Shown: positions 1,205 through 14,874, counted from the stretch's first letter. The stretch: DNA of 45,686 bases from a bacterium (GCA_035559435.1 DATMBC010000010.1:1-45686); one strand, 5' to 3'. Notes: generated from the sequence alone by a model not told the origin. Numbers and translations are program-made.

Positions 1205-2110
1205 ATGCGTGTCGCCGCCATCGATCTGGGCACGTTCTCGGCGCTGCTGTTGATTGCCGAGTTGCGGCGGGGACGATTGCATCCCCTCTGTGAAGAACGT
1301 CGGACCGTGGACCTCACCAGCGACCGTCACGGCCGTCTCCCCACCGAGGCGGTGCGTCGCGCGGGGCGTGTGCTCTCGCGCTACGACGCGCTGGCGCGCC
1401 AGCATGGAGTTTCTGCCGGCCTGGTGGCGGCGACTGCCGCGATACGCGCCGCCGGCAACCGCGCCGCCGTGGTGGAACAACTGCGCCGGGCAACGTCGTT
1501 TCCGGTGCAGGTGCTGAGCGCCCGGCGCGAAGCCGCGCTCTCGGCGCGCTGCGCGCTGTCGGGGATGCGGGGCGCAACCGCGCAGCGACTAGTCATCGAT
1601 CTCGGCGGGGGCTCCACGGAAATCCTCGAGCCCGTCTCCGGTGTCTTTCGCAGCTTCAAGATCGGCGCGGCGCGCGCCACCGACCAATGGGTTACGCACG
1701 CGCCGAAAAACCCGGCCGCGCGCGATTGGTACTACCTCGGCTGCGCCGACCGCGCGTTCCTGACGCTGAATCCCGATGTCTTTCGTGACACAAGCGCCAT
1801 CGTTGGAGTGGGAGGGACCTTGACCGCGCTGGCGGCCCTTGCGGCCGGGCTGCGACGCTTCGATCCGGAAGTGGTTCATGGCCGCGTCCTCAGCGCCGAT
1901 TGGATCGGCGCCACCGCCGCGGAGCTGGCGCGGCTGCCAATCGCGCGTCTTCGAAAACTTCTGCCCTATGATCCGGCGCGGGCCCGGGTGATTGTCGCTG
2001 GAACTTACCTCTGGGCCGCGGTGTTAAACCGCCTGAACGCACGGCGCGTGACGGTCTCCGCGCGTGGCCTGCGTTGGGGCGTGGCGGCCCAACTCGCCGG
2101 CCTGCCGTAG
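1205..2110 (+). CDS. Ppx/GppA-family phosphatase
   Basis: This 301-residue protein belongs to the exopolyphosphatase/pppGpp-phosphatase family of the ASKHA (actin-like ATPase) fold. Visible motifs are AIDLGTFSALLLIAE at the N-terminus, an ATAAIRAAGNR stretch, VIDLGGGSTEI in the middle and GVGGTLTALA towards the C-terminus. It lacks the long C-terminal HD-like extension of E. coli Ppx and GppA, so it is the short Ppx1-domain type. The usual GSNS phosphate loop reads GTFS here, so substrate or activity may differ. The ATG at 1205 begins 16 bases after etfA. Start and family are well supported; the choice between polyphosphate and (p)ppGpp is not. Confidence 0.82.
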   Translation: MRVAAIDLGTFSALLLIAELRRGRLHPLCEERRTVDLTSDRHGRLPTEAVRRAGRVLSRYDALARQHGVSAGLVAATAAIRAAGNRAAVVEQLRRATSFPVQVLSARREAALSARCALSGMRGATAQRLVIDLGGGSTEILEPVSGVFRSFKIGAARATDQWVTHAPKNPAARDWYYLGCADRAFLTLNPDVFRDTSAIVGVGGTLTALAALAAGLRRFDPEVVHGRVLSADWIGATAAELARLPIARLRKLLPYDPARARVIVAGTYLWAAVLNRLNARRVTVSARGLRWGVAAQLAGLP

Positions 2111-2261
2111 CGGTTGCCGACCCTCGACCGCGACCAGAAAACCCCTTGACCAACTCCAACTTGGGGACGACATTCGCTCCCTTACGATGCGCATGGGGGC
2201 GCGTCTGTCAGCCAGACCCGGATGCCACGACGCCTTCGGGTTTCACTTCCACCCAAACGAC

Positions 2262-4862
2262 ATGATGAGCATCTCACACACACGCACCCGCTGGCTTCGG
2301 CCGCTTGCCTGGTTCGTCGCGCTGGCTTTGCTCGGACCGGCCGTTGCCTCTGCCGCCGACCTGCCGCGCGCCTGGCAGATTGATCCGGCCGAGGACGCCG
2401 CCTTGTCCAAACCGGCCGTGTCGACCGACACCGTGCCCGGCTCCAACAACGTAGTCGATATCATCCACATCACCCCCGATGTCTGGGCCGCGACCGCCAA
2501 GGGACCGAGCCGTCTGACGCTGCCGGGGGATCAGTGGCTGACTTATGACACCACCGATGGTCTGCCGTCCCTCCAAGTACCGGCGATGGGCATCTTTCCC
2601 AACGGCGCCTGGTCCGCGACCAGCCACACCGAAGTGCGCGATGGCCGTGTGGTGACCTGGGGGGATGGCCTTTACCGCTTCAATGAGGTGAGTGAGGAGT
2701 GGGAGCGACGGACCCCGTCGAGCAATCAGGCCTCCGGTCCGTTTCAGTTGGCCTACGATCTGGCCTATGCGCGCGGCCGTTTGTTCGCCACCTGCTTTGC
2801 CGGCGGACTGCTGGTCAGCGACGATGATGGCCTGACCTGGGAAAACATCTTCGCCGATGGCACCGCCCGCTCGGATTTCGAGAACAAGACCTTCAACGAT
2901 CTGAACAATCGTTACTTCGCCGCGGTGGTCGACTCGACCCGTCCCGACTCGCTGGCGCTGTGGGCGGGAACCGCCTACGGCATCAACAAGATGATTTTTC
3001 TGACCGACACGCTCAAGCCGCGCGGCAAGGTCTTCCATGACCTTTATCTCGACGGGGCGCGTCTGTATGCCGCCACCGACGATGGCATGTCACGCACGCC
3101 GGACCGCGGCGGCAGTTGGCGCACCTACAACGCGCTCTACGATGGCTTCCCGTCCGATTACGTCATCTCAACCGCCGCCAAAGGCGACACCTTCTGGGTC
3201 GGTCTGGCCAGTCCCGACAACGATTCCGGATTGGGGCTTGCCTACAGCTTCAACAATGGCCGCGACTGGACGGTCACCCAGCCTTTCCACGCCACCGGCC
3301 CGAGGCGGCGTCCGCGGGACATCGCGTTGACACCCGGACGTGTCTGGGTGGCCTGCGAGGACGGTGGAACGATCTACGCCGACATGCCGGGCGTTGTGTG
3401 GGAAAACGCTCTCGGTATAGATGCGTATTCGCTTCTGCCCGCGCCGCCGGATGATCCGGAGACCGTTTTCATCGGCACCGAAGTCGGAGTCTACGCCTGG
3501 CCGGTGTCCGGATCGCCATTGCCCGGCGCCACGATGCCCATCGGGGTCGAAGCCGACTCCATCGGACAGCGGGTGATCGGCATGGGATACCAGCAGACTC
3601 CGTGCACGACCGCGTTTGACTCCGTGATCTGGGCGCTCTGTGAACCCGGCTCCAACGGCTTCGGCACACCGGGATTTGCGATCAGCGCCGATGGCGGCGA
3701 GACTTGGAATGTCTCATCGCGGCGTCTTGGCGTACGCGATGTCGTCTTCGAGGGCTGCCGCTATTGGTTGGCCACCGACAGTGGGCTGGCCGAGGGCGAT
3801 ATCCGCAACCTCGACAGTCTGATGTTCACCGCTTCCTACAGGAACATGGTCAACAACAAGCGCATCGGCGCCACGCCGTTGTCGCTGGCCGCCGAGATCG
3901 GCAAAGATGACCTGACCGGCGCCGATGTTCTCAAGACCCTCTGGGTCGGCACCGATTCGATGATGGCGCGCACGCTGGACAAGGGCATCACCTGGGGCGT
4001 GGTCTTCTCCAACTCCAATCCCAACGACTTCGATCTGCTTGAGTTCTTCCGCTATCGCGATGATGACACCGCCATCGCCGGGTTCGAGCAACTCTCCGGC
4101 AATTTCATCACCGCGATCGGCTTCCAGCCGGGCGGGCGCGGCACCATCTGGGCGGCCACCCAGGCCACCGGCCAAGGGCGTTTCGCCAACATCTTTACCG
4201 GATCGAAGGAGAAAGATGGCCTCTCGGTGACGCGCGATGCGGGACGGACCTGGTCGGTGCCGCTCACCGGCCATCAGATCTGGAACTTCGCCTTCGATGG
4301 CGCCATCGTCTGGGCCGCCTCCTCGCAGGGATTGCTCTACTCGCCCGATAACGGCGTCTCGTGGGACACGATCAGCACCTTCACCGATCCCGAAACCGGC
4401 GCGGTCATCGACTCGACCACAGAGGTCTTCGCGGTTGAACTGGTGGGCAATGAAATCTGGGTCGGCACCGCCAACGGCATGGCGATCCTGACCCGCAACG
4501 GCCAGACCAAGGCGGTGCGCCGTGGCTTCAAGTCCGTGCAGCCGGGGGCCGCAGGCGGCGAGGGAGGGGCCTATGCCACCCCCGTGCCGTACTCGCCCAA
4601 CATCTCCTCCGGCGGCATCCGCTTCCACTACACGCCGCCTTCCGACGGCCCGGTCACGATCAAGATTTACGATTACGCCAACAATCTCGTCAAGACCGTC
4701 ACCGATGGCGCGCTGCGCGAGGGGGGACGTCAATACGACGAGCTCGATATCTGGGATGGACGCAACGGCGAGGGAGAGGTCGTCGCCGTGGGCACCTACT
4801 TCTTTGTCATCGAATACTCTGGCGGCCAGACGCACTGGGGTAAAGTGGTGGTGATTCCGTGA
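2262..4862 (+). CDS. Secreted BNR/Asp-box beta-propeller protein with FlgD-like C-terminal Ig domain
   Basis: The 866-residue product starts with a signal peptide (basic HTRTRW, hydrophobic core, likely cut after ASA near residue 34). The body contains many Asp-box/BNR-type repeats, for example SDDDGLTW, TPDRGGSW, SADGGETW, TRDAGRTW and SPDNGVSW, which indicates one or two beta-propellers. The last roughly 80 residues (VTIKIYDYANNLVKTV through WDGRNGEGE to VGTYFFVIEY) form a FlgD-like Ig domain, the kind used as a C-terminal sorting tail in FCB bacteria. It is followed directly by two PorV-like genes, which fits a surface or secreted role. A possible -35 TTGACC lies at 2146-2151, without a good -10. 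An earlier in-frame start at 2064 would overlap the ppx-like gene and precede the signal peptide, so 2262 was chosen. Confidence 0.8.
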   Translation: MMSISHTRTRWLRPLAWFVALALLGPAVASAADLPRAWQIDPAEDAALSKPAVSTDTVPGSNNVVDIIHITPDVWAATAKGPSRLTLPGDQWLTYDTTDGLPSLQVPAMGIFPNGAWSATSHTEVRDGRVVTWGDGLYRFNEVSEEWERRTPSSNQASGPFQLAYDLAYARGRLFATCFAGGLLVSDDDGLTWENIFADGTARSDFENKTFNDLNNRYFAAVVDSTRPDSLALWAGTAYGINKMIFLTDTLKPRGKVFHDLYLDGARLYAATDDGMSRTPDRGGSWRTYNALYDGFPSDYVISTAAKGDTFWVGLASPDNDSGLGLAYSFNNGRDWTVTQPFHATGPRRRPRDIALTPGRVWVACEDGGTIYADMPGVVWENALGIDAYSLLPAPPDDPETVFIGTEVGVYAWPVSGSPLPGATMPIGVEADSIGQRVIGMGYQQTPCTTAFDSVIWALCEPGSNGFGTPGFAISADGGETWNVSSRRLGVRDVVFEGCRYWLATDSGLAEGDIRNLDSLMFTASYRNMVNNKRIGATPLSLAAEIGKDDLTGADVLKTLWVGTDSMMARTLDKGITWGVVFSNSNPNDFDLLEFFRYRDDDTAIAGFEQLSGNFITAIGFQPGGRGTIWAATQATGQGRFANIFTGSKEKDGLSVTRDAGRTWSVPLTGHQIWNFAFDGAIVWAASSQGLLYSPDNGVSWDTISTFTDPETGAVIDSTTEVFAVELVGNEIWVGTANGMAILTRNGQTKAVRRGFKSVQPGAAGGEGGAYATPVPYSPNISSGGIRFHYTPPSDGPVTIKIYDYANNLVKTVTDGALREGGRQYDELDIWDGRNGEGEVVAVGTYFFVIEYSGGQTHWGKVVVIP

Positions 4863-4876
4863 GGGGCGCAGACGCA

Positions 4877-5887
4877 ATGACTCAGACCCTTGGCACTCGT
4901 CGTTGGATCGCCGCGTTGACGGCGGCGCTGGCGCTCTGGCCGGTGGGCGCGGCGGCCCAGGAAGACGGCGGCCAGCCGGGCGCGATGCTGGATTGGAGCG
5001 TCGGCGCGCGCGCCGTCGCCATGGGCTCGGCCTTCACCGCCACCGCCGAAGGCCCCAGCGGCTCCTGGTGGAACCCGGCCGGAATCGCGCAGACCCGCCA
5101 GGACGCCGTCGAAATGGCCCTGCGCAAGATGTCCTTCGACCGTCAGGCCGGTTACATCAACTACATCCACCCCTTCGGCCGCGAGGAAGCGGCGATGGGG
5201 TTCTCGTGGATCTACGCCGGTGTCGGCGACATCTTCGCCCGCGACATCGACGGCCAGATCGGCGATGAGATCTCCGATTATTCGAACGCCTTCGCCTTCA
5301 CCTTTGCGCGCCGGTTCACCGAGCGCACGGCCCCGACCGCCGTTTCCCTGGGCGTGAACCTGCGCTATGTCCAGCACAACATCGCCAACATCAGCGCCTA
5401 CACGGTCGGCTTCGACCTCGGCGCACAGTTGCGCCACCGCATGCTCAAGCGCGGCATGGCCGCCGATGCCGTCCCCAACGAACTGCGGCTTGGCGTGGCG
5501 GTCCAGCGGCTCAACCAGAAATACCCCTGGACCACCAGCGACTACTGGATCGAGGAAGGGGAGTCGGGGGGATCGTCATTTGATGAGAGATTCCCGGTGG
5601 TGGTGCGCGGCGGGGTGGCGGCGCTTGTGTTCAATGGGCGCGCGCTCGGCGCAGTCGATGTGAAAGTGGATGCCGACCGAGGCGCGACCGTGCACGTCGG
5701 CGCCGAAGGCCGCTTCCGTGAACTGATCGCGGTGCGCGCCGGCGTCGATGACGGCCGTCTCACCTTCGGCGGCGGAGTGGAGCCGCGCGCTTCCAGCCGT
5801 GTCCGTTTTGTGCTCGACTACGCGTTCGCGGTGCAGCCCGATGAAATCGACGCCGAGCATGTCTTCTCGCTGGGCGTGCGCTTCTAA
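4877..5887 (+). CDS. PorV/PorQ-family outer-membrane protein (first copy)
   Basis: The 336-residue product has a signal peptide (AALTAALALWPVGAAAQ) and then the typical PorV/PorQ (UPF0164-like) opening: LDWSVGARAVAMGSAF and GPSGSWWNPAGIAQ. The rest alternates polar and hydrophobic residues as expected for a beta-barrel, and ends in an aromatic terminal strand (HVFSLGVRF), a signal for outer-membrane insertion. In Bacteroidetes PorV is the type IX secretion shuttle for cargo; a transport role here is inference. The ATG at 4877 has GAGGGG about 10 bases upstream; an alternative GTG at 4859 overlaps the previous stop. It forms an operon with the genes on both sides. Confidence 0.8.
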   Translation: MTQTLGTRRWIAALTAALALWPVGAAAQEDGGQPGAMLDWSVGARAVAMGSAFTATAEGPSGSWWNPAGIAQTRQDAVEMALRKMSFDRQAGYINYIHPFGREEAAMGFSWIYAGVGDIFARDIDGQIGDEISDYSNAFAFTFARRFTERTAPTAVSLGVNLRYVQHNIANISAYTVGFDLGAQLRHRMLKRGMAADAVPNELRLGVAVQRLNQKYPWTTSDYWIEEGESGGSSFDERFPVVVRGGVAALVFNGRALGAVDVKVDADRGATVHVGAEGRFRELIAVRAGVDDGRLTFGGGVEPRASSRVRFVLDYAFAVQPDEIDAEHVFSLGVRF

Positions 5888-5890
5888 CGA

Positions 5891-6829
5891 ATGCGGAACG
5901 GGATGTCGACGATGCGATCGCTTACACACTGTGCCGCCGGTCTTGTCATGGCGGTCGTTTCATTGGTCGCGACGGCCCGGAGCGCGGCGGCGCAGTCGAA
6001 CGCGACCGACCCCATCGGCTTTCGCTTCCTGACCATCGGCGGCGGCGCCCGTGCGGTGGCGCTGGCCGAAACGATGGTCGCCGACGCCGAAGATCCCTTC
6101 GCCACCGAGTACAATCCCGCCGGATTGGTCGGCATTCCGAAGACCGTCCTCTCGTTTGCCCATAACGTCTATTTCCAGGACACCCGCGGCGAATACCTCG
6201 CGGTCGCGGTGCCCTGGCAGAAATGGTCGTTCGGCGCGCGGGTGGCCTACCTGGGCACCGGCGATATCCCCCGACGCACCGGCCCCTCGCAGGACCCGAT
6301 CGGTTACTACGACGCGGCCAGCGGCATCTTCCAGGCCGCGATCGGGCGTGTGGTCGATGAGCGGCTCTCGGTCGGGCTGTCGGCCGCCTATGTGCTCGAG
6401 CACATCGAGTCGGAGACCGCGCAAAATGCCATCCTCGGCCTGGGGGCGCGGTACCGAATCCATCGCAACTTTCACTTCGGCATCGCCTTCACCAACGTCG
6501 GCCCCAAGGCCAAGTTCATCGAGCGCGAGTTCAAGATGCCCAACCGGGTCCACGTCGGCGGGGCCTGGAGTCGTGAGCAACTCTCTCTGCGCGGCGAGTT
6601 TCTGGCGGCCGAGGACGAAAATCTGCATTGGCACTTCGGCGGCGAGTACACCCCCGATCCACGTCTGGCGTTGCGCGCGGGCGTGCGTCTCGGCTATGAC
6701 ACCCAGACCTTCAGCGCCGGCGCCGGCATCCGCACCGCCGATCAACGCTTCGGTGTCGACTACGCCTTCGCGCCGTACTCCGACGATCTGGGCAGTACCC
6801 ACCGTTTCGGCCTGACGGTGCGTCCGTAA
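5891..6829 (+). CDS. PorV/PorQ-family outer-membrane protein (second copy)
   Basis: This 312-residue protein begins 3 bases after the previous gene. It has a signal peptide ending near SAAAQS and the same family opening as its neighbour (TIGGGARAVALAE, then EYNPAGLVG). It ends with a beta-strand pattern and a terminal aromatic motif (HRFGLTVRP). The two proteins are clearly diverged paralogues. An internal start at 5906 (MSTMRSL) is possible. Two barrels next to a propeller/FlgD-Ig protein suggest one export or surface-assembly unit. Confidence 0.8.
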   Translation: MRNGMSTMRSLTHCAAGLVMAVVSLVATARSAAAQSNATDPIGFRFLTIGGGARAVALAETMVADAEDPFATEYNPAGLVGIPKTVLSFAHNVYFQDTRGEYLAVAVPWQKWSFGARVAYLGTGDIPRRTGPSQDPIGYYDAASGIFQAAIGRVVDERLSVGLSAAYVLEHIESETAQNAILGLGARYRIHRNFHFGIAFTNVGPKAKFIEREFKMPNRVHVGGAWSREQLSLRGEFLAAEDENLHWHFGGEYTPDPRLALRAGVRLGYDTQTFSAGAGIRTADQRFGVDYAFAPYSDDLGSTHRFGLTVRP

Positions 6830-6848
6830 TCACCCTCCGCCTTTGGTG

Positions 6849-6877
6849 TTGACGCTTCCGACGGATGGCGGTTTATA
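6849..6877 (+). promoter_or_regulatory. Promoter for the membrane-protein operon, -10 close to the ATG
   Basis: A -35 TTGACG (6849-6854) is followed after 17 bases by TTTATA (6872-6877), or after 19 bases by TATAAC (6874-6879). The ATG at 6884 begins only 6 bases after TTTATA. There is no Shine-Dalgarno sequence between them, so the transcript may be leaderless or nearly so. Confidence 0.5.
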
Positions 6878-6883
6878 ACCCGC

Positions 6884-7747
6884 ATGCGCCGGCGGCTCCG
6901 CGTTCTGACAGCCCTCTCGCTTTGCGGCATCCCGGCGGTGGCGATGGCCGGGCCGCGGGATGTCATACCGGCGCTGGCCGTGCAGACTCAACGTCTGCCC
7001 GAACTCATCGCAATTGTCCTGGTCATCGCCGCGGCCTTCGTCGCCGGCCGGCTGGTGAAACGGCGCGGCGCGCCGGCGCTGCGTCCCCTGCCGCCGCTTG
7101 ATGCTCTGCCCGATGCCATCGGACGCGCCACCGAGACCGGCACGCCGGTGGTCTACATCACCGGCTGGGGGGGCGATATGGGACGTCCCACCACCATGGC
7201 CTCGATGCAGATTCTCTCGCATGTCGCGCGGCAATCCGCCCAGTACAACTGCCGACTGCTTTTCCCCAGCCACGATCCGGTGATCGCGCAGGTGGCCGAT
7301 GACACGATCACGCAGGCGGCCTCGCTGGCGGGTCGCCCGGAGTGGAAGGCGCTGACCGCCGCGACCTTTGTCACACAAAGCCAGTTCGGCTACGCCGCCG
7401 CGATCGAGGGGATCGTCGCGCGCGAACATCCCGGGGCGGTCCTGCTGCTGGGCACTTTCGAGGGCGAGGCGCTGATCCTCGCCGAGGCGGCGCATCGCTC
7501 CGGCGCGGTCACCATTGCCGGCACCGATTCGACCATCCAGCTGTCGTTTTTCCTGGTCGCCTGTGACTACACGCTGATCGGCGAGGAGGTATTCGCGGCC
7601 TCGGGTGTTCTCTCCGGCGATGCGCGCGCCCTCGGCGCGCTCTGGGCGCAGGATTGGCTGAAGTATCTGGCGCTGGCCCTTCTGCTCTGCGGGGCGTTGG
7701 TTCTGTGGCTTGCCGCCTATGACGCCGGTCCGTGGCTGGCGAAATGA
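6884..7747 (+). CDS. Unknown membrane protein with central alpha/beta domain (operon gene 1)
   Basis: The 287-residue product has a possible signal or first membrane segment at 7-22, a second hydrophobic helix around 38-58 (ELIAIVLVIAAAFVAG), a soluble domain of about 180 residues, and a C-terminal helix pair (LKYLALALLLCGALVLWLAA). The soluble part has alternating beta/alpha stretches such as TPVVYITGWGGDMG, GAVLLLGTFEGEA and GAVTIAGTDST, suggesting a Rossmann-like or flavodoxin-like fold. I do not recognise the family; it may match a domain of unknown function such as DUF6754, but I could not check. It is first of four closely spaced genes. A later Met start is possible if the mRNA is not leaderless. 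Confidence 0.7.
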   Translation: MRRRLRVLTALSLCGIPAVAMAGPRDVIPALAVQTQRLPELIAIVLVIAAAFVAGRLVKRRGAPALRPLPPLDALPDAIGRATETGTPVVYITGWGGDMGRPTTMASMQILSHVARQSAQYNCRLLFPSHDPVIAQVADDTITQAASLAGRPEWKALTAATFVTQSQFGYAAAIEGIVAREHPGAVLLLGTFEGEALILAEAAHRSGAVTIAGTDSTIQLSFFLVACDYTLIGEEVFAASGVLSGDARALGALWAQDWLKYLALALLLCGALVLWLAAYDAGPWLAK

Positions 7748-7754
7748 CGCGACG

Positions 7755-8384
7755 ATGAGCATGCTGCGCGACCGCCTCACCATTCTGACCGCCGCCACCG
7801 CCGGCGTCTTCATGGTCGTGCAGTACTTCGTCACATCGCCGGGAATGGATGCGACCTACCGCGCGATTCTCAATTGGATGCAGGTGATCTTCGCCTGCGC
7901 CTTGATGGTCGGCATCGCCGCAGTGGTGAAAAACCACATCGTGCGTCTCCGACGCCGTCGCGCCGAACGGCCGTATTCGCTGGTGCTTTTGGCCTCGGTG
8001 GCGGCGATGGCGTCGATGGGGTTTTCCGGCGGCATCGATCAGGGCTCGTCGTTTCTTTGGGCCTTCAATCACCTGCAGGCGCCGATGCAGGCCACGGTCT
8101 TCTCGCTTCTGGCCTTTTATGTGACCTCGGCGGCCTTTCGTGGGTTCCGTGCCCGCTCGGTGGAATCGGCGGTGCTCATCGCCGCGGGGTTGATCGTGCT
8201 CATCGGACGGGTCCCGTTGGGCGAGCAGATCAGCGCGCAACTGCCCGCGGCGGCCGAGTGGATTGTCAATGTGCCGGCGCTGGCCGCCAAACGCGCCATC
8301 CTGATTGGTATCGGACTGGGAATGGTCGCCACCGCCCTGAAAGTCATCGCCGGCGTCGAGCGCACCTACCTGGGGGGACGGTAG
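7755..8384 (+). CDS. Unknown integral membrane protein (operon gene 2)
   Basis: This 209-residue protein starts 7 bases after gene 1. It has about six hydrophobic segments: near 8-25, 37-55, 70-88, 105-122, 132-150 and 175-195. A basic loop (RLRRRRAERPYS) after the second helix indicates the cytoplasmic side. No catalytic motif or known family is recognised. Its place between two proteins with soluble alpha/beta domains suggests it is a membrane partner in one complex. Confidence 0.65.
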   Translation: MSMLRDRLTILTAATAGVFMVVQYFVTSPGMDATYRAILNWMQVIFACALMVGIAAVVKNHIVRLRRRRAERPYSLVLLASVAAMASMGFSGGIDQGSSFLWAFNHLQAPMQATVFSLLAFYVTSAAFRGFRARSVESAVLIAAGLIVLIGRVPLGEQISAQLPAAAEWIVNVPALAAKRAILIGIGLGMVATALKVIAGVERTYLGGR

Positions 8385-8385
8385 G

Positions 8386-9186
8386 GTGCGCGCGCGGCGG
8401 ATCATCTTTGCGCTGCTGGCGGTTGCGATGATCGCCGTCATGATCTGGCGGCCGCGGCTGCCGATCACGGTCACCGATTCCACCCGCGCCGTCTTCGCCA
8501 TGATCGACGCCCTCGACTCGAACGCGGTGGTGATGATCTCCTTCGATCACGAGGCCTCCAGTCTGCCCGAGATCGGTCCGATCGGCGCGGCCATCGCCGA
8601 TCACTGCTTCCGCCGCGGCATCAAAGTGGTCGGGCTGGCGCTGTTTTCCGAAGGGAACGCCATCGGCTACGACCTGCTCTCCCGGCGCGCCATACGGCAG
8701 GGGAGAGAGTACGGCGACGACTGGATCTACCTCGGCTTCCGTCCGCAGTACACCGCCGCCATCCTCGGAATGGGGGAGGACATCGGTGAAGTTTTCGCCA
8801 CCGACTATCTCGGCGCGCCGCTGTCCCGTCTGCCGCTGGGCGCGCGTGTCCGCAACTACGAGGACATCGATCTGGTGGTCTCGGTCGCCGATGGGTCGAT
8901 GCCGACCTATTGGATCGAATACGCCGCCAATCGCTATGGTGAGAAGGTCGTCGCGGCGCTCTCGGCGGTCATGGTGACCTCGTTTACGCCCTATCAGGAA
9001 TCCGGGCAACTGGCCGGCATCCTCACCGGCTTGAAGGGCGCCGCCGAATACGAGCAACTCCTGCAATCGCCCGCCGCGGGTGTGCGTGGCATGGCGGCGC
9101 AGTCGGCCGCGCACGTGTTGATCGCCCTCCTCGTGCTCTGGGGCAACATCGAGGCATGGCGCTCCCGCAAACGGAGGGCCGCCTGA
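8386..9186 (+). CDS. Unknown membrane-anchored protein with alpha/beta domain (operon gene 3)
   Basis: The 266-residue product starts with GTG one base after gene 2. It has an N-terminal membrane anchor (IIFALLAVAMIAVMIW), a soluble domain of about 200 residues, and a C-terminal helix (AAHVLIALLVLWGNIEAW) followed by a basic tail. The soluble part contains SNAVVMISFDHEASS and RGIKVVGLALFSEG, again a beta/alpha pattern. Its architecture (anchor, alpha/beta domain, C-terminal helix) mirrors gene 1, and the two may be distant paralogues. The family is not recognised. Confidence 0.65.
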   Translation: MRARRIIFALLAVAMIAVMIWRPRLPITVTDSTRAVFAMIDALDSNAVVMISFDHEASSLPEIGPIGAAIADHCFRRGIKVVGLALFSEGNAIGYDLLSRRAIRQGREYGDDWIYLGFRPQYTAAILGMGEDIGEVFATDYLGAPLSRLPLGARVRNYEDIDLVVSVADGSMPTYWIEYAANRYGEKVVAALSAVMVTSFTPYQESGQLAGILTGLKGAAEYEQLLQSPAAGVRGMAAQSAAHVLIALLVLWGNIEAWRSRKRRAA

Positions 9187-9187
9187 G

Positions 9188-9778
9188 ATGTGGTGGGAAA
9201 CCACGATCACCGCGCTGTTGACGCTAGCCATCTACACCATTCTGGTCGGCGACAATCCGATCTTCAAGTTCGCCGAGCATCTCCTGCTGGGGCTCTCGAT
9301 CGGTTACTCGCTGGTGGTGACGGTCAAATCGATTCTGATCCCGCAGGCGATCGCGCCCTTGGGAGACGGCCAATGGGCGGCGTTAATCCCGGTCATTCTC
9401 GGCTCGGCGATGTTCCTGCGTGTGCATCCCCGCCTGGCCCCCTGGTCGCAGATTCCGCTCGCGCTCCTGATCGGCGCCGGCGCCGGCGCCGCCATCCCGG
9501 CGATGATGCAGGCACGGGTGCTCAAGCAGACCGCCGCCACCATCTCCGGCAGCGGCACCGTCGATGGCGTGATCATTTTGTTGGGGGTGCTGGTGACGCT
9601 GATGTATTTCGTCTTCACCCGCCGTCACACCGGCGCCTGGGGGCGGGCGGCCGTCGCCGGGCGGTACTTTATGATGATATTCTTCGGCGCCACGTTTGCG
9701 TATACGGTCATGTCACGCATGGCGCTCCTGATCGGGCGTCTCGAGTTCCTGTTGTCCGACTGGCTCGGCGTGATCTGA
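9188..9778 (+). CDS. Unknown integral membrane protein (operon gene 4)
   Basis: This 196-residue protein starts one base after gene 3. It is mostly hydrophobic, with about six segments (9-22, 33-52, 62-80, 90-108, 127-145, 155-178). Polar landmarks are GDNPIFKFAEH near the N-terminus and FTRRHTGAWGR in a loop. No family is recognised. One-base gaps between genes 2, 3 and 4 indicate translational coupling, hence a fixed-ratio membrane complex by inference. Confidence 0.65.
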   Translation: MWWETTITALLTLAIYTILVGDNPIFKFAEHLLLGLSIGYSLVVTVKSILIPQAIAPLGDGQWAALIPVILGSAMFLRVHPRLAPWSQIPLALLIGAGAGAAIPAMMQARVLKQTAATISGSGTVDGVIILLGVLVTLMYFVFTRRHTGAWGRAAVAGRYFMMIFFGATFAYTVMSRMALLIGRLEFLLSDWLGVI

Positions 9779-9801
9779 TCCGATGTCCGGAACCCACGAC
9801 G

Positions 9802-9945
9802 ATGATCTGCCCCCGCTGCCGCCGCGCCATGGTCGAGCAAAAGCGGGTCTTCCACGGACGCCGCAAATGGATCTGCCCGGTCTGCAAGAAGGTCCGGTTT
9901 CAGAGCGTGCGCCCTCCGCGATCGCGCAAGCCCGAGCACGAGTAG
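9802..9945 (+). CDS. Tiny double-CxxC zinc-ribbon protein
   Basis: A 47-residue frame opens with MICPRC and has a second CPVC pair about 30 residues later, then a basic tail (PPRSRKPEHE). Two CxxC pairs with this spacing form a zinc ribbon, which is hard to get by chance in a GC-rich frame. The role is unknown; nucleic-acid or ribosome binding is typical of such ribbons. Its last 79 bases overlap, in another frame, the start of the DUF72 gene. It follows the membrane operon by 23 bases and could be its last gene. Confidence 0.6.
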   Translation: MICPRCRRAMVEQKRVFHGRRKWICPVCKKVRFQSVRPPRSRKPEHE

Positions 9946-10733
9946 CCCGTCGGTATCCCAATGTCCGTGTCGGCACCAGCGGCTACTCCTTCGCCGACTG
10001 GGTGGGCTCCTACTATCCCGCCGGGATCGCGCGCGGCCGCATGTTCGACCACTACGCCGCCGATTTCGACACCGTCGAGATCAACTCCACGTACTATGGC
10101 ATCCCGAGCGCGAAGGTCTTCGCCAACTTGGAACGCAAGAGCCCGCCGGCGTTCGAGTTCCTCGTCAAGACCCACGGCAGCTTCACCCACCAGCGCGACC
10201 AGGCCGCAGCCAACATTCCGCCGCTGCTGGAAGCGGTCGCGCCGCTGCGCGAAGCCGGGAAACTGCGCGGGCTGCTGGCCCAGTTCCCTTACTCTTTCCG
10301 CTTTGCCCCCGCCAACCTCGACTACCTGCGCCGTCAGAATGACCGGCTGGCGGGAATCCCGCTGTTCGTCGAATTTCGCCACGACAGTTGGCTGCACCCG
10401 GAAGTGAAGGAAGCGTTGCGTCAGTCGCAGATCGGCTACTGCAACGTCGATGAACCGCCCCTGCCGCATCTGCTGCCCCCCGAAGCCGCGGCCACCACCC
10501 CGGTGGGGTACATCCGTCTCCATGGACGCAACGCCGCGCAGTGGTGGGAGGGTGGCGCGGAGCGATACAACTATCAATACAGCGACGACCAACTGCGCGA
10601 ATGGGTCGGACGCCTCGACTCCCTGCGCGCCCAGACCGACCGCATCTACGTCTTCTTCAACAACTGCCACCTCGGCCGCGCCGTCCGTGACGCCCACCGG
10701 TTTCTCGAACTGCTGGGCGAGGAAGACGCGTGA
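9867..10733 (+). CDS. DUF72 (YecE-like) TIM-barrel protein
   Basis: Family similarity begins around 9950 with NVRVGTSGYSFADWVGSYYP, followed by DTVEINSTYYGIPS, FEFLVKTHGSFTH, a WWEGGAERYNYQYSD stretch and VFFNNCHLG. This is the DUF72 family, a TIM-barrel of undetermined function. No start codon lies between the end of the zinc-ribbon gene (9945) and this homology. The nearest in-frame ATG is at 9867 inside that gene; another is at 9783. From 9867 the product is 288 residues with a non-conserved N-terminal tail of roughly 30 residues. The overlap is therefore forced by the sequence. Confidence 0.85.
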   Translation: MDLPGLQEGPVSERAPSAIAQARARVARRYPNVRVGTSGYSFADWVGSYYPAGIARGRMFDHYAADFDTVEINSTYYGIPSAKVFANLERKSPPAFEFLVKTHGSFTHQRDQAAANIPPLLEAVAPLREAGKLRGLLAQFPYSFRFAPANLDYLRRQNDRLAGIPLFVEFRHDSWLHPEVKEALRQSQIGYCNVDEPPLPHLLPPEAAATTPVGYIRLHGRNAAQWWEGGAERYNYQYSDDQLREWVGRLDSLRAQTDRIYVFFNNCHLGRAVRDAHRFLELLGEEDA

Positions 10734-10925
10734 AACAATCCTGTCAGAATTGAAAAAAGGAACACGCGCCGCCCGATTTGCTCACGATGTAACATATTGT
10801 GTGCCAGTAAGTAATCATGCCTAAGCTAAAGTGCCGATCGAGCCGATAATTACTATTGCGGAGTATGGCCATCGCGTATAGGTTACGAGGACCTGCCCAC
10901 GGGGGGCGGTCTGACGTTGTCCATT

Positions 10926-11861
10926 ATGTCCAAACGGCTGTTGATCAGGGTTGGTGTCGTGGTCTGGGCGTTGGCGGCTTTGGTCGTCGGCGTCACCCAG
11001 CAGTTGTCGCCCTCGTTGCATCCCGATTCCCCGGCCCCCAGGCCGAAGGACCTGCAGCCGGCGGCTTGGGTGCCCAAGACCTCGTTTGCGGAACTGAAGT
11101 CGATGCCCAATCTGCGCTGCGCATCGGCCTTCATCCTCGACAATAAGGCCGGGGAGATCATCCTCGAGAAGAACGCCCACCAGGTGCGCCCGATCGCCTC
11201 GATCACCAAGCTGCTGACCGCGCTGGTCTTCCTCGAATCCGGCGTAGACCTGAACACCACCACAACGATCACCCCCGAGGATGCCTACGAGTCATCCCGC
11301 TCGCGTCTGCGTCCCGGCGAAGAGTACACCGTCCGCGACCTTCTCCACGCCGCGCTGATCTCCTCCGACAACCGCGCGGCACGGGCGCTGTCGCGTTCGG
11401 CCGGCATGACCCAGGCGATGTTCATCGCCCGCATGAACGACAAGGCGCGCGAACTCGATATGGACTCGACCCATGTCGTCGAGCCGACCGGCCTGTCCAA
11501 CGAAAACCGCTCCACTGCGCACGATTGCGCCATTCTGGTCAACGCGGCGCTGAAGAATCATCTGATCCGCCACATCACGTCCCTGACCGGCCACACCATC
11601 CGGCCACTCAATCGCCGCCGCAACGTGGCGCTGTCGAACACCAACCGGCTCCTGCAGACCGATTTGCAGTTCCTCGGCGCCAAGACCGGGTATATCAACG
11701 ACGCCGGCTGGTGCATCGCCGCCCGCGCCCTCTCCGGGCAGGGGGACGATGTCACCGCCGTGGTCCTCGGCGCCCGCACCTCGACCCAGCGCTTCGCCTC
11801 GCTTTCCAGCGCGTTGCACTGGGCCTTTGATGTTGTATCTTCCTCCCTCTCCCGAAACTGA
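10926..11861 (+). CDS. D-alanyl-D-alanine carboxypeptidase, S11 family
   Basis: The 311-residue product has an N-terminal membrane helix (VGVVVWALAALVVGV), a proline-rich linker and an S11 penicillin-binding domain. All three active-site motifs are present: S92-I-T-K95, S147-D-N149 and K253-T-G255. It lacks the C-terminal beta-rich domain and amphipathic anchor of DacA, so it is the short PbpG/DacF-like type held by its N-terminal helix. It trims peptidoglycan stem peptides in the periplasm. The ATG at 10926 was chosen; a TTG at 10917 is in frame. The 192 bases upstream are AT-rich by local standards, with a weak TTGCGG/TATAGG pair at 10856-10882 (15-base spacing). Confidence 0.88.
   Translation: MSKRLLIRVGVVVWALAALVVGVTQQLSPSLHPDSPAPRPKDLQPAAWVPKTSFAELKSMPNLRCASAFILDNKAGEIILEKNAHQVRPIASITKLLTALVFLESGVDLNTTTTITPEDAYESSRSRLRPGEEYTVRDLLHAALISSDNRAARALSRSAGMTQAMFIARMNDKARELDMDSTHVVEPTGLSNENRSTAHDCAILVNAALKNHLIRHITSLTGHTIRPLNRRRNVALSNTNRLLQTDLQFLGAKTGYINDAGWCIAARALSGQGDDVTAVVLGARTSTQRFASLSSALHWAFDVVSSSLSRN
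11814..11841 (+). promoter_or_regulatory. Candidate promoter inside the end of the carboxypeptidase gene
   Basis: TTGCAC (11814-11819), a 16-base gap and TATCTT (11836-11841) lie before the small coiled-coil gene at 11875. The same TATCTT hexamer appears before the CoA-transferase genes (44254-44259) and before dnaG (15097-15102), which raises its plausibility as a -10 element here. Confidence 0.35.
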
Positions 11862-11874
11862 GTACCTTCCCTGC

Positions 11875-12126
11875 ATGGGCGCAAGCGGCGACCAGCGCAT
11901 TGAGGAACTGCTGGGAGTCTTGGACACCAGTCTCTTGGAGTTTGAAGAACTCCTGGGCGAATTGGCCGATCAGGCGGAAAAGACCGCGCCGAAACTCGAA
12001 TCGCTGGCCCGCGAGCAGCGCGAGTCGCGCGCCGAAATCGCCGAATTGCGCGAGATGATCGAGACGCTTACCCAGCGCGTCGAACGGCTCACCTCGATAC
12101 TGACCGACCCGCACCGCGAGCGGTAG
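11875..12126 (+). CDS. Small coiled-coil protein
   Basis: The 83-residue acidic product is almost wholly heptad-like (LLGVLDTSLLEFEELLGELA, then LREMIETLTQRVERLTSIL). This indicates a long coiled coil that dimerises or pairs with a partner. No family is recognised. It starts 13 bases after the carboxypeptidase stop. With only 31 bases to the next frame it may have been part of a longer signalling locus whose remnant follows, but nothing in the sequence joins them. Confidence 0.6.
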   Translation: MGASGDQRIEELLGVLDTSLLEFEELLGELADQAEKTAPKLESLAREQRESRAEIAELREMIETLTQRVERLTSILTDPHRER

Positions 12127-12156
12127 GCCGCCCGGCCGCCGGATTCACTTCGTCCG

Positions 12157-12411
12157 TTGTCGGCCGATGTGCCTGGGATTGCCGTCGGGAAGACACCCGA
12201 TGCCTGTTCGTTGGCGGACCATCCGAATGACAACCTGAAGGAAGGACGCATTGGCATGGGACTGGGGCTGCCCGTGAGCTACCGCATCGTGGAGGCGCAT
12301 AACGGCACCCTGCGCATTGACAGCATTGAAGGTCAGGGCACCACCGTCACGGTCGATATCCCGCTCGCGCAGATTCAACCGCCGCCCGCCCCGATCGACA
12401 TCAGCGCGTAA
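12157..12411 (+). pseudogene. Orphan histidine-kinase ATPase tail (HATPase_c fragment)
   Basis: The 84-residue frame has near its middle a perfect G2 box and the end of the HATPase_c fold: [17 protein letters not shown], then [19 protein letters not shown]. The upstream part ([13 protein letters not shown]) keeps only a vague trace of the N/G1 region, and there is no H box or DHp domain in any frame before it. It looks like the surviving 3' end of a sensor kinase gene. A short product from ATG 12256, with GGAAGGA upstream, cannot be excluded. It could not bind ATP by itself. Confidence 0.6.
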
Positions 12412-12453
12412 ACGAATCGGCCCACGACATCTCCATCCCGCGCGCCGGGGCAT

Positions 12454-12459
12454 TATATT
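12454..12459 (+). promoter_or_regulatory. Candidate -10 element directly before mutS2
   Basis: TATATT ends 6 bases before the mutS2 ATG (12466) in otherwise very GC-rich DNA. It is bracketed by GGGG (12447-12450) and CCCC (12462-12465). No -35 is obvious at 17 bases. No Shine-Dalgarno sequence precedes the ATG, so the mRNA may be leaderless. Confidence 0.35.
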
Positions 12460-12465
12460 CACCCC

Positions 12466-14874
12466 ATGCCCGACACTCCGGTTGCCAACGCCCATACGCT
12501 TTCGGTCCTCGAGTTCGACCGCATCGTCGAATCCACCGCCGGCTTCTGTCTGACGCCGATGGGCGGCGAACGAATCCGTCGCCGCCAACCCAGCGCCGAT
12601 CCCGACTGGGTCGACGCCCGCTTTGCCGAACTGCGCGAGATGATGACTTTGGCGGCGACCGGCGGATTCCCGCTGCACCGACTGCCCGACATTCGTCCCC
12701 ATCTCGAAAAGTCGGCCCTCGACGGCGCCTTTCTCGATCCACCCGAGCTTCTTCAGATCGGCGAATTCCTGCAAGGGGTCGATGCGCTTCTGGCCTTCGC
12801 CAGGACGTCGCGCGAGTCAGCGCCGCGTGTGGAGGAATATCTCGAATCGCTCTCGGCGATCTACCCCCTGCGCCAGGCGATCAGCCGTTCGATCACCCCG
12901 GAAGGAGAGGTTGCCGACTCCGCCTCGCCCGAGTTGGCCAAGATCCGTCGGGAAAAACGCGGCGCGCGCGACGCGGTGGTCGGACGCCTCGAACGCATCC
13001 TCGCCCAGCGCAAGACCGATCCGTCGCGCATGGATGACCTCATCACCCTGCGCAATGACCGGTTTGTCATTCCGGTCCGCGAGGGCGATCCCGCCGCCGG
13101 CGAAGGCATTATCCAGGATCGCTCTTCCTCGGGCGCGACGCTCTATGTCGAACCCATGGCGGTGGTGGAGCTGAACAACCGGCTGCAACGGCTCGGTCTG
13201 GAAGAGGCGCGCGAAGTGCGCCGCATCCTCCTGGCCCTCACCGAGCAGGTCCGCGACCACCGCGAACCGCTTGCCGATGATGTCGACTCGATCGGCGCGC
13301 TCGACGCCGTCCATGCGCTCGCCCGGTTCGGCTTGCACATCGACGGGATTGTGCCCGGACGGGTCGCCACCGCGTCGATTACCCTGCGGCAGGCGCGTCA
13401 CCCGCTTTTGGTGCTTAAGGCGGCGCGTCTGCCGAAGTCCGAGCGCGCGCCGGTGGTGCCGATGAGTCTTGCCATCGGCGATCAGCACACCGCGATCATC
13501 GTCACCGGACCGAACACCGGCGGCAAGACCGTCGCGCTGAAGACCGTCGGGCTTCTGACCCTCATGGCGCAGGCGGGCTGGCCGTTGCCGGTCGCCGAGG
13601 GCACCGCCATCGGGTTGTTTGACCATGTGATCGCCGACATCGGCGACGAGCAATCGATCGAGTCTTCGCTGTCGACGTTCTCGTCGCACCTGATGCGCAT
13701 CAACGACGCGCTGGCGCGCGCCAACGACCGCACGCTCGTCCTGCTCGACGAGCTGGGCGCCGGCACCGACCCGAAGGAGGGCGCGGCGCTGGGCGAGGCG
13801 ATCATCGGCGAATTGACCGAACGCGGCACCCGGCTGGTGGTCACCACCCACCACTCGGCGCTCAAGACGCTCTCCCAGCACGATCCCCGCATCGAGAACG
13901 CGTCGCTGGTCTTCGATGTGAAGACGCTCTCGCCGACCTACCAATTCCGTGTCGGGCTGCCCGGCGCCTCCTATGCCATCGACATCGCCCGCCGGCTGGG
14001 GGTGTCGCCGACGGTCATTGACCGCGCCATGTCCCTGGTCGATGCGCAGGAACGCGACCTCACCAGTCTGCTCAATGAGCTCGATGAGCGTCTCGAGACG
14101 CTGCGCGCCCAACAGGAGGACCTGGAGGAAAAGCAGCGCGCCGCCGCCTCGCTGGAGGAACTGTACAAGGCCCGTGTGGCCACGCTGGAGAAGTCGGCCA
14201 GCGAGCGCAAGCAGGAGGCGCTGGCCGAAGCCGAACGAATCGTCGAGGGCACCCGCCGCGAGATGGAGAACCTGGTGCGTGAAATCCGCGAAACTCAGGC
14301 GGAGAAGGACAAGGTGAAGCAATCGCACCACACCATCACCGCCCGCCTCGAGGACATCCGCGAACGCAGACGCGAACTCGCCCCGACACCAGCGGCGCCG
14401 GAGCAGCTCCAAGGCCCGCTGACCGTTGGCGACAAGGTCTGGATCGAGGCCTTCCGCAAGGAAGGCGAGGTGATCGACCTCGACACCGCCCGCGGCAAGC
14501 TCAAAGTCCGCATCGGCGATTTCCTCTATGCGCTCGACCGCTCGGCGGTCACCCGGGTCAAGGGCGCCGCAGAGTCCGAACCCGCCAAACCGGTGATCCG
14601 CATCCGTGTGCAATCGACCACCGAGATCGGCCCCGAACTTTCGCTGCGCGGCGAGACCGCCGAGGATGCGCTGATCCTGCTTGATCGCTACCTCGATGAC
14701 GCCATCCTCGCCGGCTGGCAGGAAGTGCGCATTGTGCACGGCAAGGGGGAGGGCATCCTCCGTCGCGCCGTGACCGAGTTCCTCGCCAAGGACAAGCGCG
14801 TCGAATCGCGCCGCCTCGGCGAGTGGAACGAAGGCGCCGATGGGGTGACGATCGCGCGGTTGAAATCATCGTAA
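12466..14874 (+). CDS. mutS2: MutS2-family ATPase/endonuclease
   Basis: The 802-residue product has normal MutS2 length. It lacks the mismatch-binding N-terminal domain of MutS and has the lever/clamp region, then the ABC-type ATPase: Walker A GPNTGGKT at 348-355, Walker B with D428-E429 in LLDELGAGTDP, and a THHSALK stretch. A long coiled coil spans about 530-650, followed by a KOW-like segment and a C-terminal Smr domain (LSLRGE near 726, HGKGEG at 758). MutS2 acts on recombination intermediates and on collided ribosomes; the Smr domain gives nuclease activity. The usual LDLRG motif is LSLRG and HGKGTG is HGKGEG, which could affect nuclease activity. Confidence 0.95.
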   Translation: MPDTPVANAHTLSVLEFDRIVESTAGFCLTPMGGERIRRRQPSADPDWVDARFAELREMMTLAATGGFPLHRLPDIRPHLEKSALDGAFLDPPELLQIGEFLQGVDALLAFARTSRESAPRVEEYLESLSAIYPLRQAISRSITPEGEVADSASPELAKIRREKRGARDAVVGRLERILAQRKTDPSRMDDLITLRNDRFVIPVREGDPAAGEGIIQDRSSSGATLYVEPMAVVELNNRLQRLGLEEAREVRRILLALTEQVRDHREPLADDVDSIGALDAVHALARFGLHIDGIVPGRVATASITLRQARHPLLVLKAARLPKSERAPVVPMSLAIGDQHTAIIVTGPNTGGKTVALKTVGLLTLMAQAGWPLPVAEGTAIGLFDHVIADIGDEQSIESSLSTFSSHLMRINDALARANDRTLVLLDELGAGTDPKEGAALGEAIIGELTERGTRLVVTTHHSALKTLSQHDPRIENASLVFDVKTLSPTYQFRVGLPGASYAIDIARRLGVSPTVIDRAMSLVDAQERDLTSLLNELDERLETLRAQQEDLEEKQRAAASLEELYKARVATLEKSASERKQEALAEAERIVEGTRREMENLVREIRETQAEKDKVKQSHHTITARLEDIRERRRELAPTPAAPEQLQGPLTVGDKVWIEAFRKEGEVIDLDTARGKLKVRIGDFLYALDRSAVTRVKGAAESEPAKPVIRIRVQSTTEIGPELSLRGETAEDALILLDRYLDDAILAGWQEVRIVHGKGEGILRRAVTEFLAKDKRVESRRLGEWNEGADGVTIARLKSS

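Follow-up and report, generated by a model that had tools for sequence, protein, structure and literature searches.

A four-gene DUF6754 membrane cassette and its MutL and Kow partners, parts of a possible ATP-driven envelope machine in Candidatus Zixiibacteriota

What do four tightly packed genes for membrane proteins do, and do they act alone? We addressed this question for a locus in a window of 45,686 nucleotides of bacterial DNA (GCA_035559435.1 DATMBC010000010.1:1-45686) from Candidatus Zixiibacteriota (Zixibacteria), where an earlier note had described a four-gene membrane operon of unknown function. The ORF coordinates bear out the tight + strand array that it had claimed, with intergenic gaps of 7, 1, and 1 bases:

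6884-7747, + strand: g1, DUF6754 protein (287 aa, ATG start)
7755-8384, + strand: g2, polytopic membrane protein (209 aa, ATG start, about 6 TM segments)
8386-9186, + strand: g3, membrane-anchored α/β protein (266 aa, GTG start)
9188-9778, + strand: g4, polytopic membrane protein (196 aa, ATG start, about 5-6 TM segments)

All four are real genes, with 55-90 homologues aligned per gene at a mean column identity of 34-39% (the family alignments comprise 69 sequences for g2, 90 for g3, and 74 for g4). The g1 protein has a probable signal peptide (MRRRLRVLTALSLCGIPAVAMA), a transmembrane (TM) segment at about residues 35-61, and a C-terminal TM segment at about 247-280, while g3 has an N-terminal TM segment at 2-21 and a C-terminal one at 231-265. 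AlphaFold2 models of both proteins (pLDDT 89.5 for g1 and 97.4 for g3) reveal a Rossmann-like α/β domain between two TM helices. Hydropathy gives about 5-6 hydrophobic segments apiece for g2 and g4, or about 11-12 TM segments together, and the layout matches the proposed alternation of anchored proteins bearing a soluble α/β domain (g1, g3) with polytopic ones (g2, g4). According to the positive-inside rule, applied through K/R counts, the α/β domain of g1 is predicted to lie on the cytoplasmic side and that of g3 on the extracytoplasmic side. In the family alignments, g2 and g4 keep charged residues within or close to their TM segments, g3 has a conserved GGLKGAAEYE motif, and the g4 family conserves YKDNPxYKFAEHL and SxEHKGxxG stretches.

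The similar architecture of g1 and g3 had suggested that the two might be ancient paralogues. Their models indeed share an identical order of elements between the TM helices, a helix followed by six strand-helix repeats, but this arrangement is generic Rossmann-like, profile comparison of the two families gave a probability of 1-2%, and their α/β domains are predicted to lie on opposite sides of the membrane. The shared architecture stands, and the paralogy is not supported; at the level of sequence, profile comparison found no relation for either g1/g3 or g2/g4. Foldseek searches of g1 and g3 against the PDB returned generic Rossmann-like matches alone, with a query TM-score of 0.37 at most, and neither fold resembled a known transporter or assembly machine in this search.

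Profile searches identify g1 as a full-length member of Pfam PF20539 (DUF6754; E 1.2e-73; 247.9 bits against a curated cut-off of 27 bits; profile positions 6-246 of 257), an entry described as a domain of unknown function that does not cover g2-g4 or the partner proteins described below. We found no significant match for g2, g3, or g4 in Pfam or NCBIfam, and none in a PDB profile search with their family alignments. The g1 alignment matched only FN3 domains among PDB profiles, and solely through the N-terminal part of g1 relatives. Thus g1 is not wholly unrecognized, being a DUF6754 protein, and g2-g4 belong to no known family. No named transporter or secretion system is matched jointly by g1-g4 in these profile searches, and their standing as a candidate undescribed system is upheld. 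A phage-derived or defence island was rejected: none of g1-g4 matched PHROGs or PADLOC, and DUF6754 is universal in the phylum.

The earlier note had also assigned the operon its own promoter. A scan of positions 4500-12500 for sigma-70-type promoters with normal spacing found no site, and the lone candidate lies in the 54 bp that separate g1 from the PorV-like gene before it:

6849-6879, + strand: promoter-like TTGACG-N19-TATAAC

The 19-nt spacer of this element is over-long, and its -10 hexamer could hardly serve the g1 start because it ends 4 nt before the ATG; judged by its sequence, we do not find it convincing as a g1 promoter. Since the neighbouring genes on both sides share the + strand, transcription may extend beyond the four genes. 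Just upstream, at 2064-6829, the window encodes a BNR/Sortilin-like repeat protein whose C-terminus is FlgD_ig-like and, after it, two outer-membrane proteins of the PorV/PorQ family (NF033709, E 2e-26 and 5e-37); the repeat protein and the PorV/PorQ pair may represent a type IX-like secretion pairing. Membership of the cassette itself in a type IX secretion system (T9SS), as these PorV neighbours might suggest, was rejected, as g1-g4 matched no NCBIfam T9SS model.

We next consider how widely the cassette is distributed. All 132 genomes sampled from the window's phylum (85 genera) encode DUF6754, mostly in 4-6 copies, and g3 was found in 131 of them; DUF6754 is absent from 14 of 14 control genomes. 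Outside the phylum it occurs in 66 of 254 sampled genomes, including ones named as Cloacimonadota, WOR-3/Stahlbacteria, Fermentibacteria/Aegiribacteria, Coatesbacteria, Latescibacterota, Gemmatimonadota, Caldithrix, Planctomycetes, Riflebacteria, Muiribacteriota, Acidobacteria, Methylomirabilis, and Edwardsbacteria, although some of these uncultured-bin names may be wrong. Gene order in related phyla, on which the operon claim hung, is conserved: counting only g1 loci with enough sequence to judge, the order g1-g2-g3-g4 on one strand is kept at 108 of 112 loci in the phylum and at 106 of 113 elsewhere, for a total of 214 of 225, the window locus among them. The flanking genes vary by locus, with no Pfam family occurring more than 4 times among 110 neighbours, so wider synteny does not account for the order of the cassette. 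These flanks were also discarded as a source of functional hints, since the neighbours are lineage-specific only and share no common theme. Near some tandem loci, recurrent neighbours resemble ExbB/ExbD and TonB receptors, several of them lying a few kb away.

The window's own genome contains five DUF6754 copies. Three form a tandem array on a single contig; each is followed by a g2, g3, and g4, so that twelve membrane genes stand in line. The fifth is interrupted by a contig end. The cassette in the window stands alone. Standalone copies from 21 Zixibacteria genomes form a single clade with a support of 100 (FastTree, 213 concatenated cassettes), and the standalone cassette is therefore an ancient, vertically inherited, and presumably non-redundant unit. 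Many relatives repeat a DUF72 gene and a D-Ala-D-Ala carboxypeptidase-like gene close to it; in the window, a 47-aa zinc-ribbon ORF (MICPRCRRAMVEQ...CPVCKK) lies at 9803-9945, between g4 and the DUF72 gene.

Paralogous cassettes differ in the domains they carry. The window's g1 has no FN3-like domain, while its tandem paralogues, like many g1 relatives, carry one behind the signal peptide; given the predicted topology of g1, this domain would be outside. Similarly, one long g1 has an Ig-like match and one g2 has FG-GAP repeats, in keeping with a putative accretion of outward-facing domains. In one Zixibacteria genome, DUF6754 is fused in frame to a peptidase S49 (SppA-like) in an 802-aa protein (L045 7324-9729, genome G023), a single-genome case that offers a possible lead to a link with membrane proteostasis. 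In a single assembly, g3-g4 appears as one 575-aa ORF (L044 3542-5266 and L233 15418-17142), which is either a natural fusion or the product of a lost stop codon. One locus outside the phylum (L118 3266-8321) encodes four g3 homologues, three of them consecutive after g4, in an unusual g3-only expansion. Finally, the g4 homologues of one family (L143 4860-7166 and L144 9950-12265) contain an insertion of roughly 300 aa before the last TM segments, with no match in Pfam.

Many cassettes adjoin genes for two further proteins, here named “MutL” (a GlmL-like ASKHA ATPase) and “Kow” (a BSH/KOW protein). Kow is 374 residues long, comprises a barrel-sandwich (BSH) segment, a middle domain, and a KOW-like C-terminus, and shows 58% mean column identity across phyla. 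MutL adjoins Kow in 46 of 47 cases. Within the phylum, Kow is found in 123 of 132 genomes. Among the 254 genomes outside it, 61 have both DUF6754 and Kow, 188 have neither, five have DUF6754 without detectable Kow (including G188, a single-contig genome), and none has Kow alone (Fisher p=2e-53, a value that overstates independence because the genomes are related). The empty Kow-only cell is telling. By neighbour clustering, we identified two additional partners: PH, a protein of about 140 aa with two TM segments and a small soluble part, and Sml, a protein of about 120 aa, which adjoin one another in 23 of 23 testable cases. Sml is encoded in 122 of the phylum's 132 genomes and in all 78 of the 78 high-quality ones, and the arrangement PH-Sml-MutL-Kow-(g1-g2-g3-g4)n recurs in several phyla. 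MutL, Kow, and PH have no PADLOC match, and Sml has a marginal match only.

Overall, it is well supported that g1-g4, MutL, Kow, PH, and Sml belong to one system. The reading of the locus as a four-gene operon thus holds locally, but the operon is one of about five copies and forms the membrane part of something larger. Genomes usually encode one Kow but one to six cassettes, so a single soluble module probably works for several membrane units. In the window's genome, Kow lies at G000:C83:1135-2250 and Sml at G000:C75:53146-53379 with PH adjoining, and MutL is split over the contig ends of C24 and C83. Since the window copy stands alone, any MutL and Kow on which it relies must come from genes at other sites in the genome. 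Between MutL and Kow, part of the Zixibacteria encode a protein of about 260 aa that is secreted or anchored and has no assigned family (L052 4017-4811; L043 6254-7030; L058 5564-6379; L191 5143-5913).

The MutL ATPase matches the whole Pfam model PF13941 (E 9e-129) and GlmL models (E 2e-69), and its ASKHA motifs are intact: DCGSTTTK (95% consensus), DIGGATTD (47 of 47), and an IGSGG-type motif (43 of 47). Two representatives score 234.6 and 217.8 bits against the GlmL equivalog, which has a cut-off of 475, and MutL reaches 176.7 bits against the GlmL family model, which has a cut-off of 204. Moreover, glutamate mutase E (PF06368) exceeds its cut-off in just 5 of the 132 phylum genomes and is absent from that of the window. 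With MutL below the GlmL cut-offs and glutamate mutase E mostly missing, the name “glutamate mutase L” misdescribes its role here. MutL also weakly resembles a family of phage partition proteins (E 7e-4).

What the data directly support is inheritance of the cassette as a block, its amplification, its co-occurrence with Kow, intact ATPase motifs, and a polytopic core with soluble domains. From these we infer, tentatively and with a little less than even confidence, an ATP-driven or ATP-gated inner-membrane machine in which a MutL-Kow module works with paralogous membrane units and acts on the cell envelope. The proteins would form a physical complex, with g1-g4 as one inner-membrane unit of a multi-part machine. 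MutL, binding ATP, and Kow would make up a cytoplasmic module, with the α/β domain that g1 is predicted to expose in the cytoplasm as its docking site; g2 and g4 would provide the membrane core; and the α/β domain of g3, together with the FN3 domains of other g1 copies, would form the outer face, a two-sided layout predicted from charge bias. By binding or hydrolysing ATP, MutL would either switch the membrane core or drive it, and the core in turn would move, assemble, or organize a component of the envelope, a role suggested by topology and accreted domains. Different cassettes might be different units or hetero-subunits with one ATPase in common. Several observations weigh against an ATP-driven machine: flanking genes and folds indicate no substrate, the window's cassette has neither MutL nor Kow adjacent, and in five genomes with DUF6754 Kow was undetected. 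ASKHA and barrel-sandwich folds also occur in enzymes, and “drives” could as well be “reactivates” or “scaffolds.”

The strongest rival, which we nonetheless consider unlikely, is a scaffold in which MutL behaves like PilM, FtsA, or MreB, and its ATP-dependent polymerization or switching positions envelope-anchoring units without any transport. The nucleotide motifs and weak partition-family match of MutL fit such a role, as do a predicted cytoplasmic g1 domain to which MutL could bind, the extracytoplasmic FN3 domains of many copies, and the several paralogous units per genome. Yet MutL matches no PilM, FtsA, or MreB family in Pfam or NCBIfam, the conserved TM helices of g2 and g4 exceed what an anchor needs, and the strong conservation of Kow is left unexplained.

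Two further readings seem to us improbable to a similar degree. In the first, a redox or ion-translocating complex, Kow would be a peripheral subunit like RnfC or NqrA that passes electrons to an ion pump formed by g2 and g4, whose conserved charged residues in or around the membrane would suit that task. The barrel-sandwich domain of Kow resembles RnfC_N and NQRA_N weakly (E 1e-4 to 0.03), but these matches cover the BSH segment only and all fall under the curated cut-offs. We recognized no cofactor motif, g1-g4 match no Rnf or Nqr subunit in Pfam or NCBIfam, and Rnf and Nqr do not include an ASKHA ATPase. The second is a solute transporter, with g3 as external substrate-binding domain, g2 and g4 as permease, a cassette for each solute, and MutL-Kow as regulator. 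Polytopic pairs with an external α/β domain and many diverged copies per genome are consistent with this idea; against it, no transporter profile or fold was matched, and a solo copy kept across the phylum as one clade is more like a housekeeping unit. Least probable is support of a B12-dependent mutase, in which MutL reactivates glutamate mutase and the membrane genes are linked to it only incidentally: the PF13941 and GlmL matches would favour it, but MutL stays below the GlmL cut-offs, and a reactivase role is largely refuted by the scarcity of glutamate mutase E compared with Kow, the constant neighbour of MutL.

Returning to the ATP-driven or ATP-gated envelope machine, we see about an even chance that it is a previously undescribed, deeply conserved machine of many uncultured phyla, in which one cytoplasmic MutL-Kow ATPase module powers or gates several paralogous four-protein units that carry Rossmann-like domains on either side of the membrane, and which, being universal in Zixibacteria, is probably essential there. 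Searches of a collection of open-access papers returned nothing on DUF6754 or this gene set. Few gene sets combine presence in all sampled genomes of a phylum, four- to six-fold amplification, and occurrence in many phyla, yet lack an assigned function. If these proteins form a single envelope machine, it would fill a gap at the core of the cell biology of Zixibacteria, Cloacimonadota, WOR-3, Fermentibacterota, Planctomycetes, and others. A concrete list of components is now available (g1-g4, MutL, Kow, PH, and Sml), and annotating the partner MutL as a glutamate-mutase factor misleads.

Comparison with known systems places the set as follows. The relation to PorV/PorQ proteins, which are linked to type IX secretion, is one of adjacency only, through the two family genes directly upstream of the window's cassette. 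The partner ATPase is homologous to GlmL/MutL (PF13941, TIGR01319, NF040745) over the entire Pfam model, with its ATP motifs intact, but it differs in its sub-cut-off scores, its location with Kow and the cassettes, and its hosts, almost all of which lack glutamate mutase within the phylum. Kow shares a similar BSH segment with the barrel-sandwich proteins RnfC and NqrA, whereas its middle domain and KOW-like C-terminus are unmatched, and it is not accompanied by Rnf or Nqr membrane subunits. In the PilM-PilN-PilO platform of the type IV pilus, a cytoplasmic ASKHA protein works with membrane proteins that bear soluble domains. We take this platform as a working analogy, since the system described here likewise pairs a cytoplasmic ASKHA protein with membrane proteins carrying soluble domains. 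Scans of MutL and g1-g4 in Pfam and NCBIfam gave no match to PilM, PilN, or PilO profiles, and the cassette differs from the pilus platform in its polytopic g2 and g4 and in its repeated four-gene sets.
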